DNA of 35,157 nucleotides from Gemmatimonadota bacterium (GTDB lineage: Bacteria > Gemmatimonadota > Gemmatimonadetes > Longimicrobiales > Gaopeijiaceae): assembly GCA_029863525.1 (NCBI GenBank), contig JAOTVL010000026.1:1-35157 (forward strand), written 5' to 3'. The notes under the pieces are model-generated. The model was not told the origin of the DNA. It saw nothing but the letters and a program-made list of their open reading frames with translations, and did not search any database. A program made the translations under genes and the position numbers. Every line of letters begins with the position of its first letter. The stretch's first letter is position 1. Below are positions 7,116 through 28,660 of the stretch, piece after piece.

Positions 7116-7928
7116 ATGAGTGATATGGGAACGATGATCGAGGATGCCCGTGCCCTGGATGGCCCCCTCGAGATCGGCGGCGAGACGTTCGTTTCACGAC
7201 TCATCGTCGGCACGGGGAAGTACGAGACCAACGCCATCATGATCGACGCGATTCGCGCGTCGGGAGCAGAGATGGTCACGGTCGCCGTGCGACGCGTCGA
7301 TCTGGATCGAACCAAGGAGGAGGGGATCCTGCATCACCTCGATCCACAGGAGTTCTTCCTCCTCGCCAATACCGCCGGGTGCTACACCGCCGAAGACGCG
7401 ATCCGCTACGCGCGGTTGGCGCGAGCCGCGGGCTTCAACGACTTCGTGAAGCTCGAGGTGATCGGGGACGAACGGACGCTCCTTCCCGACGTGCAGGCGA
7501 CGCTCGAAGCCGCACGGACGCTTGCCGGCGAAGGCTTCAAGGTCATGGCCTACACGAACGACGACCTCGTCACGGCGATTCGCCTCGAGGACGCCGGCTG
7601 CGTCGCCGTCATGCCGCTGGCCAGCCCGATCGGAAGCGGGCTCGGAGTGGTGAACCCGTACTTCATTCGTGAGATCAAGACACGACTCGACGTTCCGGTC
7701 ATCGTCGACGCAGGCGTCGGAACCGCCTCCGATGCGTGCGTCACCATGGAGCAGGGCGTAGACGGTGTCCTCATGAATACGGCCCTCGCCGCGGCGGACG
7801 ATCCGGTCCGCATGTCGCACGCGATGAAGCACGCCATCGTCGCCGGTCGGTTGGCATACTTGGCGGGAAGAATGCCATCCAGGGAGATCGCCGTGCCGTC
7901 GTCGCCGACGAAGGGCATGCTCGACTGA
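7116..7928 (+). CDS. thiG: Thiazole synthase ThiG
   Basis: ThiG builds the thiamine thiazole ring from deoxyxylulose phosphate, dehydroglycine and the sulfur on ThiS. The 270-residue TIM barrel shows LIVGTGKYET (29-38), the NTAGCYTAEDA turn (85-95), the Schiff-base lysine K112 in FVKLEVIGD, and the phosphate-binding segments PIGSGLGVVNP and VIVDAGVGTASDA. The ATG at 7116 lies one base after the thiS stop. The dehydroglycine-forming enzyme (ThiO or ThiH) is not nearby. The stop codon overlaps the likely start of rsmB. Confidence 0.96.
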   Translation: MSDMGTMIEDARALDGPLEIGGETFVSRLIVGTGKYETNAIMIDAIRASGAEMVTVAVRRVDLDRTKEEGILHHLDPQEFFLLANTAGCYTAEDAIRYARLARAAGFNDFVKLEVIGDERTLLPDVQATLEAARTLAGEGFKVMAYTNDDLVTAIRLEDAGCVAVMPLASPIGSGLGVVNPYFIREIKTRLDVPVIVDAGVGTASDACVTMEQGVDGVLMNTALAAADDPVRMSHAMKHAIVAGRLAYLAGRMPSREIAVPSSPTKGMLD

Positions 7929-9232
7929 TCGACGCCAGGAGCGGTCGTGACGCTGCGCTCTCGGCCCGGCTCGAATGCGAACGGGGACGTCGTCTCGATC
8001 GGGCGTTCGCAGCGACCGCTCGTGGCCTCGATCCCCGCGAGCGAGCCTTCGCGCACGAGCTCTCACACGGTGTCACACGTCTGCGTGGACGGTTGGACCA
8101 CCTCATCGCGCCGCACGCGCACCGTGGACTCGATTCCATCGAGCCCCGACTGCTGGAGATTCTCCGCTTGGGGGCCTACCAGGCCTTGTATATGGACGGA
8201 GTCCCTGCCTACGCGGCCGTTTCGGAAACCGTGGAGCAGGCCCGATCCGTCGTCGATGCCAAGGTGGCGGGCTTCGCGAATGCGGTCCTGCGCAGGGTGG
8301 TTGAAGCGGGGGACGGCCCGGATCGCTTCCCGAGCTTCGGGCTCGATCCTGCCGGCTTCCTCACGACCTGGGGCTCCCACCCTCGATGGCTCGTCCAGCG
8401 GTGGCTGACGCGTTGGACGCCAGAAGAAGTGCGCTCGCTCGTGGAAGCCGATAATCGGCGCCCCACGGTTTATCTCGTGCCGCTCGATATCGCCCCGACG
8501 GACGCCGCCGAACGGCTCTCCCGGTCGGGGATCGAAGCCGCGGAGGTCGGGCAGGGTACGCGTTGCGTTCGGCTGGAATCCGCGGCGGAAGTCAGGCGCG
8601 CCTTGGACGTGATCAGTCCCGCGATCGTCCAGGATCCGGCCGCAAATCTCGTGTCTCGATACGCGGATGTTCCATCGGGCACGATGGTTGCTGATCTTTG
8701 TGCGGCGCCCGGTGGTAAGATACTCGCCCTGTCGGGTAGCCCCGCCACACTGCTTGCCGCCGACCGCTCGGAGTCTCGTATCGACATGCTCAAGGAGAAC
8801 GCACGCCGAACCGGGCGACCGCTCTTGACGGTCGTCGCGGACGCGCTGCACCCTCCCATCGCACGTTCCGACGTCGTACTCCTCGACGTTCCGTGCACGG
8901 GCACGGGGACGTTGTCGCGTCACCCCGATGCACGCTGGCGCCTCGAGCCGGGCTCGATCGTCCAGATGTCCGAGCTCCAGGGACGCATGCTCGACGCGGC
9001 GGCGCCGGTGATTCCGCCGGGGGGTCTGCTCGTGTACTCGACCTGCACGCTCGAGCCCGAAGAGAACGAACAGCGCGTACGACGCTTCCTCGATGAACAC
9101 GACGATTTTGCGATCGAGGTCACCGGTGCCGTGCCGGGCGCTTTTCTGGACGTGGCTGGTCACTTGGTCGTCACGCCGCAACACTCCGACTTTGACGGCG
9201 CGTTTGCCGCTCGCATGCGGAGGGCCGCTTGA
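7925..9232 (+). CDS. rsmB: 16S rRNA m5C967 methyltransferase RsmB (start uncertain)
   Basis: An RsmB/Sun-type SAM-dependent cytosine methyltransferase. Residues 8-130 form the NusB-like RNA-binding domain (GLDPRERAFAHELSHGVTRL), and residues 240-435 the methyltransferase domain. The SAM motif is ADLCAAPGGK (256-265); the two cysteines are C324 in DVPCTGTG and C374 in YSTCTLEPEENE. The start is a problem: homology requires it near 7925-7945, yet the frame has no ATG, GTG or TTG there. I place it at CTG 7925, overlapping the thiG stop (CTGA), with GAAGGG nine bases upstream, giving 435 residues. The nearest ordinary start is GTG 7736, deep inside thiG. fmt and rsmB are classical neighbours, separated here by thiazole genes. 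Confidence 0.9.
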   Translation: MIDARSGRDAALSARLECERGRRLDRAFAATARGLDPRERAFAHELSHGVTRLRGRLDHLIAPHAHRGLDSIEPRLLEILRLGAYQALYMDGVPAYAAVSETVEQARSVVDAKVAGFANAVLRRVVEAGDGPDRFPSFGLDPAGFLTTWGSHPRWLVQRWLTRWTPEEVRSLVEADNRRPTVYLVPLDIAPTDAAERLSRSGIEAAEVGQGTRCVRLESAAEVRRALDVISPAIVQDPAANLVSRYADVPSGTMVADLCAAPGGKILALSGSPATLLAADRSESRIDMLKENARRTGRPLLTVVADALHPPIARSDVVLLDVPCTGTGTLSRHPDARWRLEPGSIVQMSELQGRMLDAAAPVIPPGGLLVYSTCTLEPEENEQRVRRFLDEHDDFAIEVTGAVPGAFLDVAGHLVVTPQHSDFDGAFAARMRRAA

Positions 9233-10182
9233 AGCTCGGGGACTCGCTCGGGCGTAGTCGTCGGCGCCGCAAGGGCAAGGGTGATTCCGACGTCCTCGAG
9301 GACTCGACAGAGGCCGGGGCGGAAGAGCCCGGCGAGGGCTCCGGCGCGGAAGAGCCCGGCGACGGCTCGGACACGACGCGTGCTCCGTTCGGCGGATCGG
9401 GAACCGGCGCCGTGCATCCGTGGTTGCAGGGTCGCAACCTCGTGATCGGGGTTGCTTCGCTGGCCCTCATCGGTTGGATCTTCGGGTACGGCGTCGCGAC
9501 CCGTGTGCTCTTCCCGGCGCCCCCACCGCCCGGCGACCTGTTCGATGTTCCGGACCTTCGAGGGCTGGGCTTCCCCATCGCGAGCGAGCGGGTCGCCGGC
9601 GCCGGCCTGACCATCGGTGCGGTCGACTCGCTCCAACATCCGTCCGTGCCGGGGGGCCAGGTCTTGGGTCAGTCTCCTCTGCCGGGGCAGGTGCTCCTGC
9701 CCGAGAGGCCGGTCGACGTGACGATCAGCGCGGGCCCGCAGACGTTGTCTGTGCCGGACGTGACGAGCCTCGATGAGGAGCGCGCACGTATCGTGCTGGA
9801 AACCAGCGGTTTCATCGTCAGCACGCGCACGGTCGAGGCGGAGGCGCCCCGCGGTCGTGTCGTCTCGATCTCCCCCCGACCCGACAGCGCCGTGGCTTTG
9901 CCGGCCGAAGTGACGATCTTCGTCAGCGCGGGTCCGCCGGTCGTGGCGATGCCGCTGGTCCTCGGGCTGGAGCGGGCCGAGGCCGAGGCCATGCTCGACT
10001 CGCTCGGGCTCGTGGTTTCGGACGTGGAGGAGGTCTTCCGGTTCGGTCGGGACCAGGGAATCGTCGTCGAGCAGGAGCCGGCGGCGGACACGGAACTCGA
10101 GCGCGGCACGAGCGTGCGTCTCAAGGTGGGCCGTGGGGGTCGGGATGGAGGGCGGCGACGCCCAGGGGGGCACGACCCATGA
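9229..10182 (+). CDS. Membrane-anchored PASTA-domain protein without kinase
   Basis: A 317-residue protein with a cytoplasmic low-complexity N-terminus, one membrane helix (about 70-92) and three PASTA domains outside (about 104-168, 172-235, 238-302). The N-terminal part has a basic run (RSRRRRKGKG) and a duplicated acidic AEEPG(E/D)GS motif at 31-47. PASTA domains bind peptidoglycan fragments or help assembly of wall proteins. There is no kinase or penicillin-binding domain, so the enzyme partner, if any, is elsewhere. The TTG start overlaps the rsmB stop (TTGA). In Firmicutes rsmB is often followed by rlmN, prpC and the PASTA kinase prkC; this may be a kinase-less counterpart, which is inference. 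Confidence 0.88.
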   Translation: MKLGDSLGRSRRRRKGKGDSDVLEDSTEAGAEEPGEGSGAEEPGDGSDTTRAPFGGSGTGAVHPWLQGRNLVIGVASLALIGWIFGYGVATRVLFPAPPPPGDLFDVPDLRGLGFPIASERVAGAGLTIGAVDSLQHPSVPGGQVLGQSPLPGQVLLPERPVDVTISAGPQTLSVPDVTSLDEERARIVLETSGFIVSTRTVEAEAPRGRVVSISPRPDSAVALPAEVTIFVSAGPPVVAMPLVLGLERAEAEAMLDSLGLVVSDVEEVFRFGRDQGIVVEQEPAADTELERGTSVRLKVGRGGRDGGRRRPGGHDP

Positions 10183-26318: not shown

Positions 26319-27164
26319 ATGGGCATCTTCACGAAGCTGTCGACGGTCATCAAGTCGAACATCAACGACCTCATCTCTCGGGCCGAGAACCCCGAGAAGA
26401 TGCTGAACCAGATCATCCTGGACATGCGCGACCAGCTCGCGAAAGCGAAGCGAGAGGTCGCCGCGGCAATCGCCGACGAGCGCAAGCTCAAGTCGCAGTT
26501 GGACACCGAGGTCAAGCAGGCCCGGGACTGGCAGCACCGCGCGATGCTCGCGGTGAAAGAGGGTCGTGACGACCTGGCCAAGCAGGCGCTGCTACGGCAG
26601 AAGGAGCATACGGAGCGCGCTCATGTGTTGCAGTCGACCTGGGAGGCGCAGGCCGGCGAAACCGAGAAACTCAAGGGATCGCTGCGGCAGCTCAACGACA
26701 AGATCGAAGAGGCCAAGCGCAAGCGGAATCTGCTCATCGCGAAGCAGAAGCGGGCGCAGGCTCAGCGGCGCATCCACGAGACGATGTCCGGTCTGTCGGA
26801 TACATCGGCCTTCGAGGCGTTCAACCGGATGGCCGACAAGATCGAGGAAGAGGAGCGCAAGAGCATCGCGCACGCCGAGGTCAACGCGGAGCTCGGTGGC
26901 GACACGCTCGAATCGGAGTTCCTCCGCCTGGAGGCGGGCCCGGGTGGGGCGGACGTCGAGGATCAGCTTCTCGCGCTCAAGGCCGAGATGGGCCTCATCG
27001 AGGCGCCCTCGTCCGAAGCCCCTCGCCAGCTCGAGTCCGGGGAGGACGACGGCGTGGTCCAAGAGGCCGACGTCGAGGAGGCGTCGGAGGAAGACGAGCA
27101 GATCCCCGAAGCTCAGCTGCTTTCCGAGTTCGAGGAGTTGGAGGAAAAACAAGCAGAAGGCTAG
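26319..27164 (+). CDS. pspA: PspA/IM30 (ESCRT-III-like) membrane-stress protein
   Basis: A 281-residue peripheral inner-membrane protein that coats and remodels stressed membranes. It begins MGIFTKLSTVIKSNINDLI, the amphipathic helix, then ENPEKMLNQIILDM (residues 24-37), followed by a long coiled coil to about 190, the normal PspA plan. A C-terminal acidic tail (about 236-281, with many Glu and Asp) goes beyond the usual 220-230 residues and may tune polymerisation. GGAGGG lies about ten bases before the ATG. PspF, PspB and PspC are absent. The YbjN-like gene is its only operon partner here. Confidence 0.95.
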   Translation: MGIFTKLSTVIKSNINDLISRAENPEKMLNQIILDMRDQLAKAKREVAAAIADERKLKSQLDTEVKQARDWQHRAMLAVKEGRDDLAKQALLRQKEHTERAHVLQSTWEAQAGETEKLKGSLRQLNDKIEEAKRKRNLLIAKQKRAQAQRRIHETMSGLSDTSAFEAFNRMADKIEEEERKSIAHAEVNAELGGDTLESEFLRLEAGPGGADVEDQLLALKAEMGLIEAPSSEAPRQLESGEDDGVVQEADVEEASEEDEQIPEAQLLSEFEELEEKQAEG

Positions 27165-27180
27165 CGTACCTTGTAGGACT

Positions 27181-27275
27181 CGGGGACACGACGAAGTCCC
27201 TCTCGCGACTCGGCGCTTCGCTACGGAGCCTGCGGCTCCGATCCTCGCTGCGAGAGGGACTTCGTCGCGTCCCCG
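27181..27275. repeat. 26-bp inverted repeat with nested hairpin after pspA
   Basis: Arms at 27181-27206 and 27250-27275 match in 25 of 26 positions. The 43-base interior holds a second hairpin, CGGAGCC-TGC-GGCTCCG (27224-27240). The interior is an inverted copy of the core of the 99-bp repeat just downstream (GCGAGGATCGGAGCC and GGCTCCG are shared). It starts 17 bases after pspA. There is no T-run, so it is not a standard terminator, though it would form a very stable RNA stem. Confidence 0.85.
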
Positions 27276-27322
27276 ACGCACAGGGTATGACCAGCCTAGG
27301 GGCAAAGGGTGGCGCCCGAGCC

Positions 27323-27717
27323 TTGCCTGGCCGCGCGATTGCGACGAGCCGTGGCTTTTGGACGACACGGCCTCGGGGGCGAGGATCGGAGCCGGAGGCT
27401 CCGCAGCGTAGCGCCGAGCCCTTGCCTGGCCGCGCGATTGCGACGAGCCGTGGCTTTTGGACGACACGGCCTCGGGGGCGAGGATCGGAGCCGCAGGCTC
27501 CGCAGCGCAGCGTCGAGCCTTCCCTGGCCGCGCGATTTGCGTCGAGCCGTGGCTTTTGGACGACACGGCCTCGGGGGCGAGGATCGGAGCCGGAGGCTCC
27601 GCAGCGCAGCGTCGAGCCTTCCCTGGCCGCGCGATTTGCGTCGAGCCGTGGCTTTTGGACGACACGGCCTCGGGGGCGAGGATCGGAGCCGGAGGCTCCG
27701 CAGCGCAGCGCCGAGCT
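27323..27717. repeat. Four tandem copies of a 99-bp unit
   Basis: Four head-to-tail units start at about 27323, 27422, 27520 and 27619; the landmark GTGGCTTTTGG recurs at 27351, 27450, 27549 and 27648, exactly 99 bases apart. Units three and four are almost identical over their length; units one and two differ from them mainly near CTGGCC and GCGACGAGCC. Each unit has two hairpins, CTCG-GGGG-CGAG and GGAGCC-GSA-GGCTCC. Because 99 is divisible by three, frames stay open across the array on both strands. I take it as non-coding. The rest of 27165-27784 outside the repeats shows nothing recognisable except a weak promoter. Confidence 0.9.
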
Positions 27718-27743
27718 CGCGAGGCCGTGTCGTCCAAAAGCCA
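27649..27743. repeat. 24-bp perfect inverted repeat closing the 99-bp array
   Basis: The segment at 27649-27672 inside the fourth unit (begins TGGCTTTTGGACG) is repeated perfectly in inverse orientation at 27720-27743. The 47-base interior contains the unit's own GGAGCC/GGCTCC hairpin. The same plan, long arms around the common core, is seen at 27181-27275 with unrelated arms. Confidence 0.88.
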
Positions 27744-27747
27744 TGTC

Positions 27748-27776
27748 TTCCCGCACACCCCTCGCGCGCGCATACT
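27748..27776 (+). promoter_or_regulatory. Weak candidate promoter for aminotransferase operon
   Basis: TTCCCG (27748-27753), 17 bases, then CATACT (27771-27776, part of CATACTAT) is the only promoter-like pair before the ATG at 27785. The spacing again implies an almost leaderless mRNA, and no Shine-Dalgarno sequence is present. Confidence 0.35.
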
Positions 27777-27784
27777 ATCCACCC

Positions 27785-28660
27785 ATGAGCACTGTTTATC
27801 TCAACGGGGCATACATGCCCAAGGCCCAAGCCTCGATCTCTCCCGATGATCGGGGCTTCTTGCTCGGCGACGGTCTCTACGAGGTGACGCCCTTCTACCA
27901 GGGCGTGCCGTTCGCGCTCGATCTACACCTGAAGCGCCTCCTGAAGGGACTCTGCTACCTGCGCATCGATTACGACGTCTCGGGCTTGGTCGCCATGCAT
28001 CACGAGCTGATCAGCCGAAACGGACTCGCGGGTGCCGAGAGGTCCATGGTGTACATGCAGATCACGCGCGGAGCCGCGCCGCGGACGCACTACTTCCCCG
28101 AGATTCCCGTCACACCCACCGTGTATGCCTTCGCGAAGGAATGGAGCCGGCCCGCGGACGAAGTTTGGAACCTCGGCTTTTCGGCGGCTACGGTGCCCGA
28201 CCGTCGCTGGAGTCGCGTCGACATCAAGACGATCTGCCTGCTGCCGAATGCCCTCGCGTTCCAGGCCGCCAAGGACAAGGGGGCGGACGACGCGATTCTG
28301 GTCCGCGACGGCGTGGCAATCGAGGGAGCCCACCAGAACTTCTGGGCCGTGTTCGGGGATACGGCCGTGACACACCCGGTCACCGGTCACATCCTCCCGG
28401 GCATCACGCGCGGCATTCTCCTGGAAGAGGCACGCGAGGCGGGCGTCTCGGTCGAAGAGCGACCGATTCAGGTCGAGGAGTTGGAGTTCGCGACCGAGTG
28501 CTTCTTCTCCGGCACGACCGGAGAGGTGCGGCCGGTCGTGGAGGTCGATGGCCGGCCGATCGGAGACGGAACCGTGGGCCCTGTGACCCGCCGACTGTCG
28601 GACATCTTCCTGGCGAGGGTCGAGGCCACGAAGAAGGCGGAGTGGGTTGCCGCGTCCTGA
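27785..28660 (+). CDS. D-amino-acid aminotransferase (PLP fold type IV)
   Basis: A 291-residue class IV aminotransferase. DRGFLLGDGLYEV (22-34) and the PLP lysine K148 in RVDIKTICLLPN are clear, as is E180 in AIEGAHQNFWAV. The segment QITRGAAPRTHYFP (92-105) holds R100 and H102, the RxH carboxylate trap known from D-amino-acid transaminases, which favours DAAT over branched-chain aminotransferase or aminodeoxychorismate lyase. DAAT interconverts D-alanine and D-glutamate with their keto acids, feeding peptidoglycan or recovering D-amino acids. The ATG at 27785 gives the normal N-terminus; the frame is open far upstream through the repeats, but that extension is not protein-like. An asparaginase gene follows with a 14-base overlap. 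Confidence 0.87.
   Translation: MSTVYLNGAYMPKAQASISPDDRGFLLGDGLYEVTPFYQGVPFALDLHLKRLLKGLCYLRIDYDVSGLVAMHHELISRNGLAGAERSMVYMQITRGAAPRTHYFPEIPVTPTVYAFAKEWSRPADEVWNLGFSAATVPDRRWSRVDIKTICLLPNALAFQAAKDKGADDAILVRDGVAIEGAHQNFWAVFGDTAVTHPVTGHILPGITRGILLEEAREAGVSVEERPIQVEELEFATECFFSGTTGEVRPVVEVDGRPIGDGTVGPVTRRLSDIFLARVEATKKAEWVAAS

Follow-up and report, generated by a model that had tools for sequence, protein, structure and literature searches.

What is the 99-bp tandem array in the longest non-coding gap of this contig, and how did it come to be there? The window, the whole stretch of 35,157 nt analyzed here, belongs to a draft genome of the Longimicrobiales, an order which we take to be placed in Gemmatimonadota. 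Tandem Repeats Finder reported the array at 27316–27716 (plus strand), with a period of 99, 4.1 copies, 96% matches and a score of 723, and unit-to-unit spacings were 99, 99 and 99; the array noticed in the earlier note is thus real. Compared in register, units 1 and 2 have 7 differences in 99 positions. Between units 3 and 4 there is a single difference in 99, close to identity as that note had stated. Unit 3 falls out of step with unit 2 at about positions 7–23 and then returns, with one base lost and one gained. The entire element lies in a 620-nt gap (27165–27784). On one side is a PspA/IM30-family gene (26319–27164, plus strand; Pfam PF04012, E 1.7e-46), whose stop codon at 27164 borders the gap, and on the other a class IV aminotransferase gene (27785–28660, plus strand; Pfam PF01063 on the 291-aa form, E 4.4e-43), with the start taken as 27785. 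By a rough gene call the next largest gap in the window is 437 nt, so this is indeed its longest non-coding stretch. Elsewhere (9314–9368), inside a predicted ORF, the window has a 27-bp unit in two copies with 92% matches (Tandem Repeats Finder).

Might the array be translated? An open frame spans it and runs on, in frame, into the aminotransferase gene, which would fit an N-terminal repeat extension of that enzyme. However, the compensating single-base loss and gain between units 2 and 3 shift the reading frame between them, and hence the unit length being a multiple of three, a point raised in the earlier note, carries no weight. Moreover, at 13 loci in relatives the aminotransferase match begins at M or V, the presumed start residue, and Pfam finds no added domain in the array-containing upstream extension. 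On these grounds a coding repeat was rejected, which bears out the description of the array as non-coding; an N-terminal extension is practically out of the question. All 14 aminotransferase loci of relatives come from drafts under Gemmatimonadota names.

Folding of the whole gap gave z = –5.3, with 0 of 20 shuffles as good. Within it are two complete long hairpins that converge, H1 (27180–27276) and H2 (27649–27743). Both H1, with its 27-nt arms, and the right arm of H2, 3' of the array, had been overlooked in the earlier note. In H1 (plus strand), the 27-nt left arm (27180–27206) pairs with the right arm (27250–27276) with 1 mismatch. The 43-nt structured loop between them (27207–27249) contains CGCTTCGCT at 27214–27222, a 7-bp stem with triloop at 27224–27240, and GATCCTCGCT. 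H2 is on the minus strand. Its arm within unit 4 (27649–27672) makes 24 of 24 pairs with a second arm immediately beyond the array (27720–27743), and pairing reaches 27644/27748 with 2 mismatches. The 47-nt loop of H2 (27673–27719) has the core inverted, with AGCGCAGCG at 27702–27710 on the plus strand and the 7-bp stem at 27684–27700. The loops thus have the same core (93% over 40 nt), inverted in one relative to the other, and the arms differ. Fold z-scores were –9.0 for H1, and –9.1 and –7.8 for H2 on the plus and minus strands, with 0 of 200 shuffles as good in each case. Covariance-model matches cover H1 (27193–27263, plus strand), H2 (27661–27731, minus strand) and three half-copy units of the array (27364–27436, 27463–27534 and 27562–27633, minus strand). 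Elsewhere in the window (7927–8033), an inverted repeat begins at the end of the 7116–7928 ORF, with 21-nt arms, 2 mismatches and a loop of 65 nt; it lacks the conserved cap.

These coordinates reveal what the array is made of. Three of its units consist of the spacer, left arm and core of H2 and lack the right arm. Unit 4 supplies the left part of a whole H2, which 27720–27743 completes. Rather than an independent element, the array is half of a large hairpin multiplied in place. Passive tandem duplication explains it most simply; it needs no function of its own, and none of the observations speaks for selection on it as an array. The left half of H2 would have been duplicated in tandem. The probable cause is slippage across the hairpin from one to the other of two near-identical GCGC(C)CGAGC stretches, which bound the duplicated half as GGCGCCCGAGCC at its start and AGCGCCGAGCTC at its end. 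The earlier note had assigned two hairpins to each unit. One of these, the 7-bp triloop stem, is exact in all four units (CGGAGCC-NNN-GGCTCCG, which occurs once more upstream, at 27224–27240). The other, GCCGTG/CACGGC, can be read by eye in each unit, but in unit 4 that stretch pairs with 27720–27743 in a perfect 24-bp stem. Neither the 99-bp unit nor the exact triloop-stem motif has any further copy in the draft source genome (83% complete, 221 contigs). In plasmid and phage collections, blastn of the gap gave no match in either, and a plasmid or phage origin was rejected.

Does the hairpin belong to a known family? Over the window, Rfam gave 0 matches at gathering score. Relaxing the E-value brought up nothing but miRNA-precursor models and a single sRNA model, all far below cut-offs, and a known Rfam RNA family was therefore rejected. 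Among the top-ranked results of longer lists from the open-licence literature, we found no description of such a hairpin family in Gemmatimonadota. The family is apparently undescribed, and, within the scope of these searches, the remark in the earlier note that the layout matches no named family stands.

Relatives, in turn, do carry the hairpin. Outside its own genome, blastn of the gap against 59 genomes gave a good match in G005 and weak ones in G053 and G058; the weak ones, which by eye resemble coding sequence, were discarded. The G005 match comprises two hairpins whose arms are unlike those of H1 and once more complementary, closely so in the first copy and poorly in the other. A covariance model from four hairpins (R1) matched further copies in other genera. 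A 13-row model (R2), run on 295 class genomes, gave matches in 16 at E ≤ 0.001, 14 of these in the taxonomic family of the window; the other two, G050 and G164, have weak matches without a long inverted repeat. A 33-row model (R3), run on 395 phylum genomes, gave matches in 15 at E ≤ 1e-4, all within the window's own taxonomic family. G050, G164, G048 and G042, in which no long stem of this kind was seen, were left out of the models. In total, covariance-model matches fall at 55 places in 42 loci. The earlier note had listed a structured RNA, a protein-binding array and a REP/MITE-like element as candidates. The array itself is only a local duplication, its unit having no other copy in the draft genome, but the hairpin inside it belongs to a dispersed, covarying REP/BIME-like family.

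Copy numbers are low. In the 13 genomes positive with R3 at E ≤ 0.001 there are 1–13 copies each: 5 in the window's genome, G000 (three of them half copies), 13 in G016, 8 in G305, 7 in G207, 5 in G018, 3 each in G077 and G075, 2 each in G005, G017 and G296, and 1 each in G092, G073 and G078. These numbers are probably undercounts, since about ten copies lie a few hundred bases or less from contig ends (G016, G305, G073, G071 and G075), where hairpins may break assemblies. In the window's genus, R3 matches 3 of 14 genomes at E ≤ 0.01, namely G000, G005 and G009. G009 has two complete hairpins, on C253 and C359, of which R3 finds only that on C253. The C359 hairpin (L086, 15–101), with 21 perfectly paired bases and GTAG just 5', was missed, so the models overlook true members. 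Absences from the large genome searches are soft, because only the best first-look candidates were scored. On C173 of G009 (L089, ∼1501–1532), we also saw what looks like the core without long arms; this match was kept out of the models.

All these hairpins share a design: a long outer stem of variable sequence and a conserved cap, in which the CGCTNCGCT mini-hairpin and a 7-bp triloop stem sit at a three-way junction. In our alignment (A6; 55 rows, 54 distinct), 88.9% of 1284 cells pair, compared with 36–50% when partners are slid. Both-sided changes occur in 333 cells; shuffles average 99, and none of 500 rose as high. Such changes affect every one of the 14 pairs in the outer stem and 6 of 7 in the triloop stem; this count of 20 pairs was reached by 5 of 500 shuffles, and the copies counted are not independent. 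Covariation among aligned units had been proposed as a check in the earlier note; in the aligned hairpins, outer stem and triloop stem covary beyond controls. None of the three mini-hairpin pairs has changed on both sides (54 rows), and in 14 of 54 rows the first of them does not pair. In the outer stem, the two pairs nearest the cap fail to form in 28 and 19 of 54 rows. Among 52 rows (half copies excluded) the CGCTNCGCT motif has two single-base exceptions, a conservation due partly to the choice of rows, since the alignments were fitted to the model and the members themselves found by it. Both G009 hairpins, which lie outside those 52 rows, have CTTCGCC at the end of this motif.

Arm lengths were obtained with a model-free stem measure. 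Dropping the three half-copy units from the 55 rows left 52, of which 48 were measurable and 4 had no measured stem and were left out of the arm statistics. Arms of at least 20 nt were found in 40 copies, 16 of them mismatch-free. Spans are 79–106 nt in 43 of the 48 copies and 63–73 nt in the other 5, and loop length across copies is 21–70 nt. At orthologous sites the arms turn over. Across 182 outer pairs in 13 comparisons, which are not independent because three are at secA, 105 pairs are unchanged. Compensation on both sides accounts for 43 and a one-sided change for 7; another 26 include a non-pair and 1 a gap. Non-pairs thus figure in 26 of the 76 changed pairs. Between G207 and G017, 8 of 14 outer pairs are compensated. 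At secA, the G075 and G305 copies differ at 9 of 14 outer pairs, with 4 compensated.

A survey of long inverted repeats (score ≥ 17, loop 12–110) yielded 12 in 1.16 Mb, 11 of them of the family; the stretches of G018, G005 and, in part, G207 had been chosen around known copies. The source genome (344,931 bases) gave 2, both in the gap. Two match-bearing contigs of G018 (380,000 bases) gave 3, two of them of the family, and G005 (31,001 bases) gave 1. The 6 from G207 (400,000 bases) are all of the family, one assigned via its model match. The survey is incomplete, recovering 1 of 2 hairpins in G005 and 2 of 5 in G018.

Where do the hairpins lie with respect to genes? The neighbours of 52 copies are convergent for 17, codirectional for 21 (15 sense, 6 antisense) and divergent for 1, and 13 copies, H2 of the window among them, lacked a call for at least one neighbour and were omitted from the orientation test. 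For comparison, we used gaps of 60–1500 nt from samples of three genomes, with genes here and around the copies called by a simple script, in which convergent, codirectional and divergent cases number 36, 180 and 62. The remaining 39 copies, which are not independent, show an excess of convergent gaps (p 2e-6) and a deficit of divergent ones (p 6e-4). The sense preference in codirectional gaps gave p 0.08 and becomes 15 versus 7 when H2 is counted. The copy starts at most 100 nt past the stop codon in 33 of 37 cases with an upstream gene pointing at it. Placement thus favors gene ends, and convergent over divergent gaps.

Particular sites are kept as well. A hairpin follows the same pspA gene in G000, G005 and G009; in G005 both copies come after its stop codon. 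The corresponding places in G010 and G011 were left out of the models; that in G011 has a weaker R3 match (E 0.0039), and that in G010 none. No match (E up to 0.5) was seen at eleven aminotransferase loci that contain pspA (L028, L029, L031–L038 and L040), nor at L030 and L027, where pspA lies beyond the locus or elsewhere. Several hairpin-less relatives have, by eye, a short G+C stem and then CCTTTC or similar after pspA. Other neighbors, named from translations and flank similarity, include secA (in two genera), rpoC and rpsL, and the position after pspA, secA and rpoC is conserved across species. In G005 (L071), the aminotransferase gene is ∼9 kb from pspA, with several other ORFs intervening. 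At L075 and L134 (G018 and G077), a converging pair lies between rpoC and rpsL, its second hairpin just 5' of an A+T-rich stretch that looks promoter-like by eye, upstream of rpsL.

Signals around the stem were also counted. Of 51 copies, 14 have a GTAG no more than ∼25 nt 5' of the stem; the figures are 3 of 52 for the 3' side (p 0.003) and 4 of 50 for sequence farther upstream (p 0.018), with orthologues kept in. It stands 6–28 nt from the stem and is not universal. CGTC is not enriched 5' of the stem (3 of 51 copies). Preceding genes stop with TAG in 18 of 32 cases versus 239 of 824 background genes (p 0.001), and 13 of the 32 end in GTAG. On the 3' side there is no U-tract: the 12 nt after the 3' arm have a mean of 2.5 T (range 1–6; 55 rows). 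A terminator scan of the gap gave no terminator-like match. Several genus g4 copies have, by eye, a T-rich stretch resembling a terminator directly before the hairpin, so transcripts might end upstream of it.

Dispersal is seen in G016, where two converging hairpins form a composite that recurs at three sites. Its copies on C63 and C80 are 71% identical over 532 bp, and shorter pieces shared with the C88 copy are 85–89% identical. The C63 site lies between two convergent genes. At the matching site in G075 the element is absent and the gap nearly so; G305 has a short palindrome there, and G296 arm remnants. The composite is lacking in G075 and G305, so presence varies within the genus. No target duplication was seen by eye at this site. 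Converging pairs also occur in the window's genome, G018, G077 and G207, and single copies are common too. Between the converging hairpins at L163 (G016:C88, 4388–5594) are ∼700 extra bases with an ORF that looks lipoprotein-like from its translation. At L182 (G018:C5, 1093–2868), downstream of secA, a gene with an ATPase-like translation lies between them. The Y1/RAYT transposase domain PF01797 was found in 2 of 16 genomes tested, that is, in 2 of 13 carriers (G305 and G018), on contigs without a hairpin match; it was not found in the window's genome, G005, G016, G207 or G017. A RAYT-driven REP was rejected because so few carriers have this domain.

How do these hairpins compare with described palindromic repeats? 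REPs, with their GTAG- and CGTC-tagged families (PMC3733652, PMC12306157), are likewise extragenic, palindromic, dispersed and placed near the 3' end of the upstream gene in convergent or codirectional gaps. GTAG REPs are reported to supply the stop codon of the preceding gene (PMC3733652), and here too GTAG stands 5' of part of the copies and preceding genes end in it. In contrast to REPs, which measure ∼20–50 nt, the Gemmatimonadota hairpins mostly span 79–106 nt, their stem sequence is not conserved and their cap is branched. They number 1–13 per genome, as opposed to usually >100 (PMC2817692); few carriers have a RAYT, and GTAG is neither universal nor closer than 6 nt to the stem. A BIME or REPIN joins two REPs, inverted relative to each other, through a linker and often occurs in tandem (PMC8266576). 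The converging pair with its linker, the tandem expansion in the window and the composite at three G016 sites resemble this layout. Yet the window's two hairpins have the cap in common but different arms, half a hairpin and a spacer make up the tandem unit, and copy number is low. Because size, copy number and transposase all depart from REPs and the U-tract is absent, we call this a new REP/BIME-like family rather than a described one.

Taken together, we think it fairly probable that the gap holds two converging hairpins of a low-copy, lineage-specific REP/BIME-like family that act at transcript 3' ends, with the array a passive duplication. H1 lies in sense orientation after pspA, and H2 in antisense orientation before the aminotransferase gene. 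Assuming transcription, placement and covariation suggest that the stem-loop works as RNA at transcript 3' ends, through end protection or help with termination, in convergent gaps for both directions. The conserved cap may be a protein-binding or folding signal, and its mini-hairpin presumably pairs.

Other readings assign the same features differently. Were the hairpins simply unusually long intrinsic terminators, their start shortly past stop codons would be expected, as would the short stem with a T-rich tail seen by eye after pspA in relatives without the hairpin. Intrinsic terminators differ, however, in their U-tract, which is absent here as is any terminator-like match in the gap, and arms of at least 20 nt in 40 of 48 copies, loops of 21–70 nt and just 1–13 copies per genome also argue against this reading, which we regard as very unlikely. 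Alternatively, the hairpins could be the ends or recombination sites of a mobile unit, either MITE-like or cassette-like with a gene between, in which a putative enzyme would read the folded cap in single-stranded DNA and gene ends would merely be where insertions are tolerated. The converging composites at three G016 sites (71–89% identical over aligned pieces), the presence or absence at one matching site, and the lipoprotein-like ORF and ATPase-like gene between hairpin pairs all point this way. GTAG 5' of part of the copies, as in RAYT-moved REPs, speaks equally for this and for the REP-like reading. Integron attC sites offer a partial parallel. They carry GTTRRRY/RYYYAAC boxes and are used by the IntI integrase; a gene is followed by a hairpin more conserved in structure than in sequence, and sometimes a gene lies between two sites. 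The same arrangement is seen here, except that the conserved letters of the hairpin family sit in the loop. On the other hand, PF01797 is present in only 2 of 13 carriers, on contigs without a hairpin match, neither defined ends nor a target duplication was found, and a fixed place after pspA, secA and rpoC across species is unlike drifting insertions. A mobile unit is therefore unlikely, if worth keeping in mind.

A further possibility concerns the matched arms themselves. Template switching at the cap during replication could make quasi-palindromes perfect with no selected function, and such a mutational process, keeping palindromes matched, could yield much of the covariation without selection. 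Arms that change much between orthologues with pairing mostly kept (G207/G017, and G075/G305 at secA) fit this, as does the half hairpin duplicated in tandem in the window. Template switching leaves unexplained, however, the conserved cap (a conservation in part ascertainment), the covariation of 6 of 7 triloop-stem pairs and the placement at 3' ends; we regard it as unlikely. There is also a slender chance that both processes belong to one self-renewing hairpin element, whose branched cap would be read as folded single-stranded DNA by a putative enzyme, one arm being rewritten from the other, and which would move as converging pairs into post-gene gaps, sometimes with a gene between. If true, this would be a new class of element.

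On the favored reading, a REP/BIME-like family at transcript 3' ends, the array in the window is a snapshot of a partly tandem-duplicated hairpin. The family adds a palindromic repeat design unlike that of GTAG/CGTC REPs, with variable arms, a conserved branched cap and few RAYTs. The turnover of matched arms at orthologous sites provides a natural test of selection versus template switching in long hairpins.
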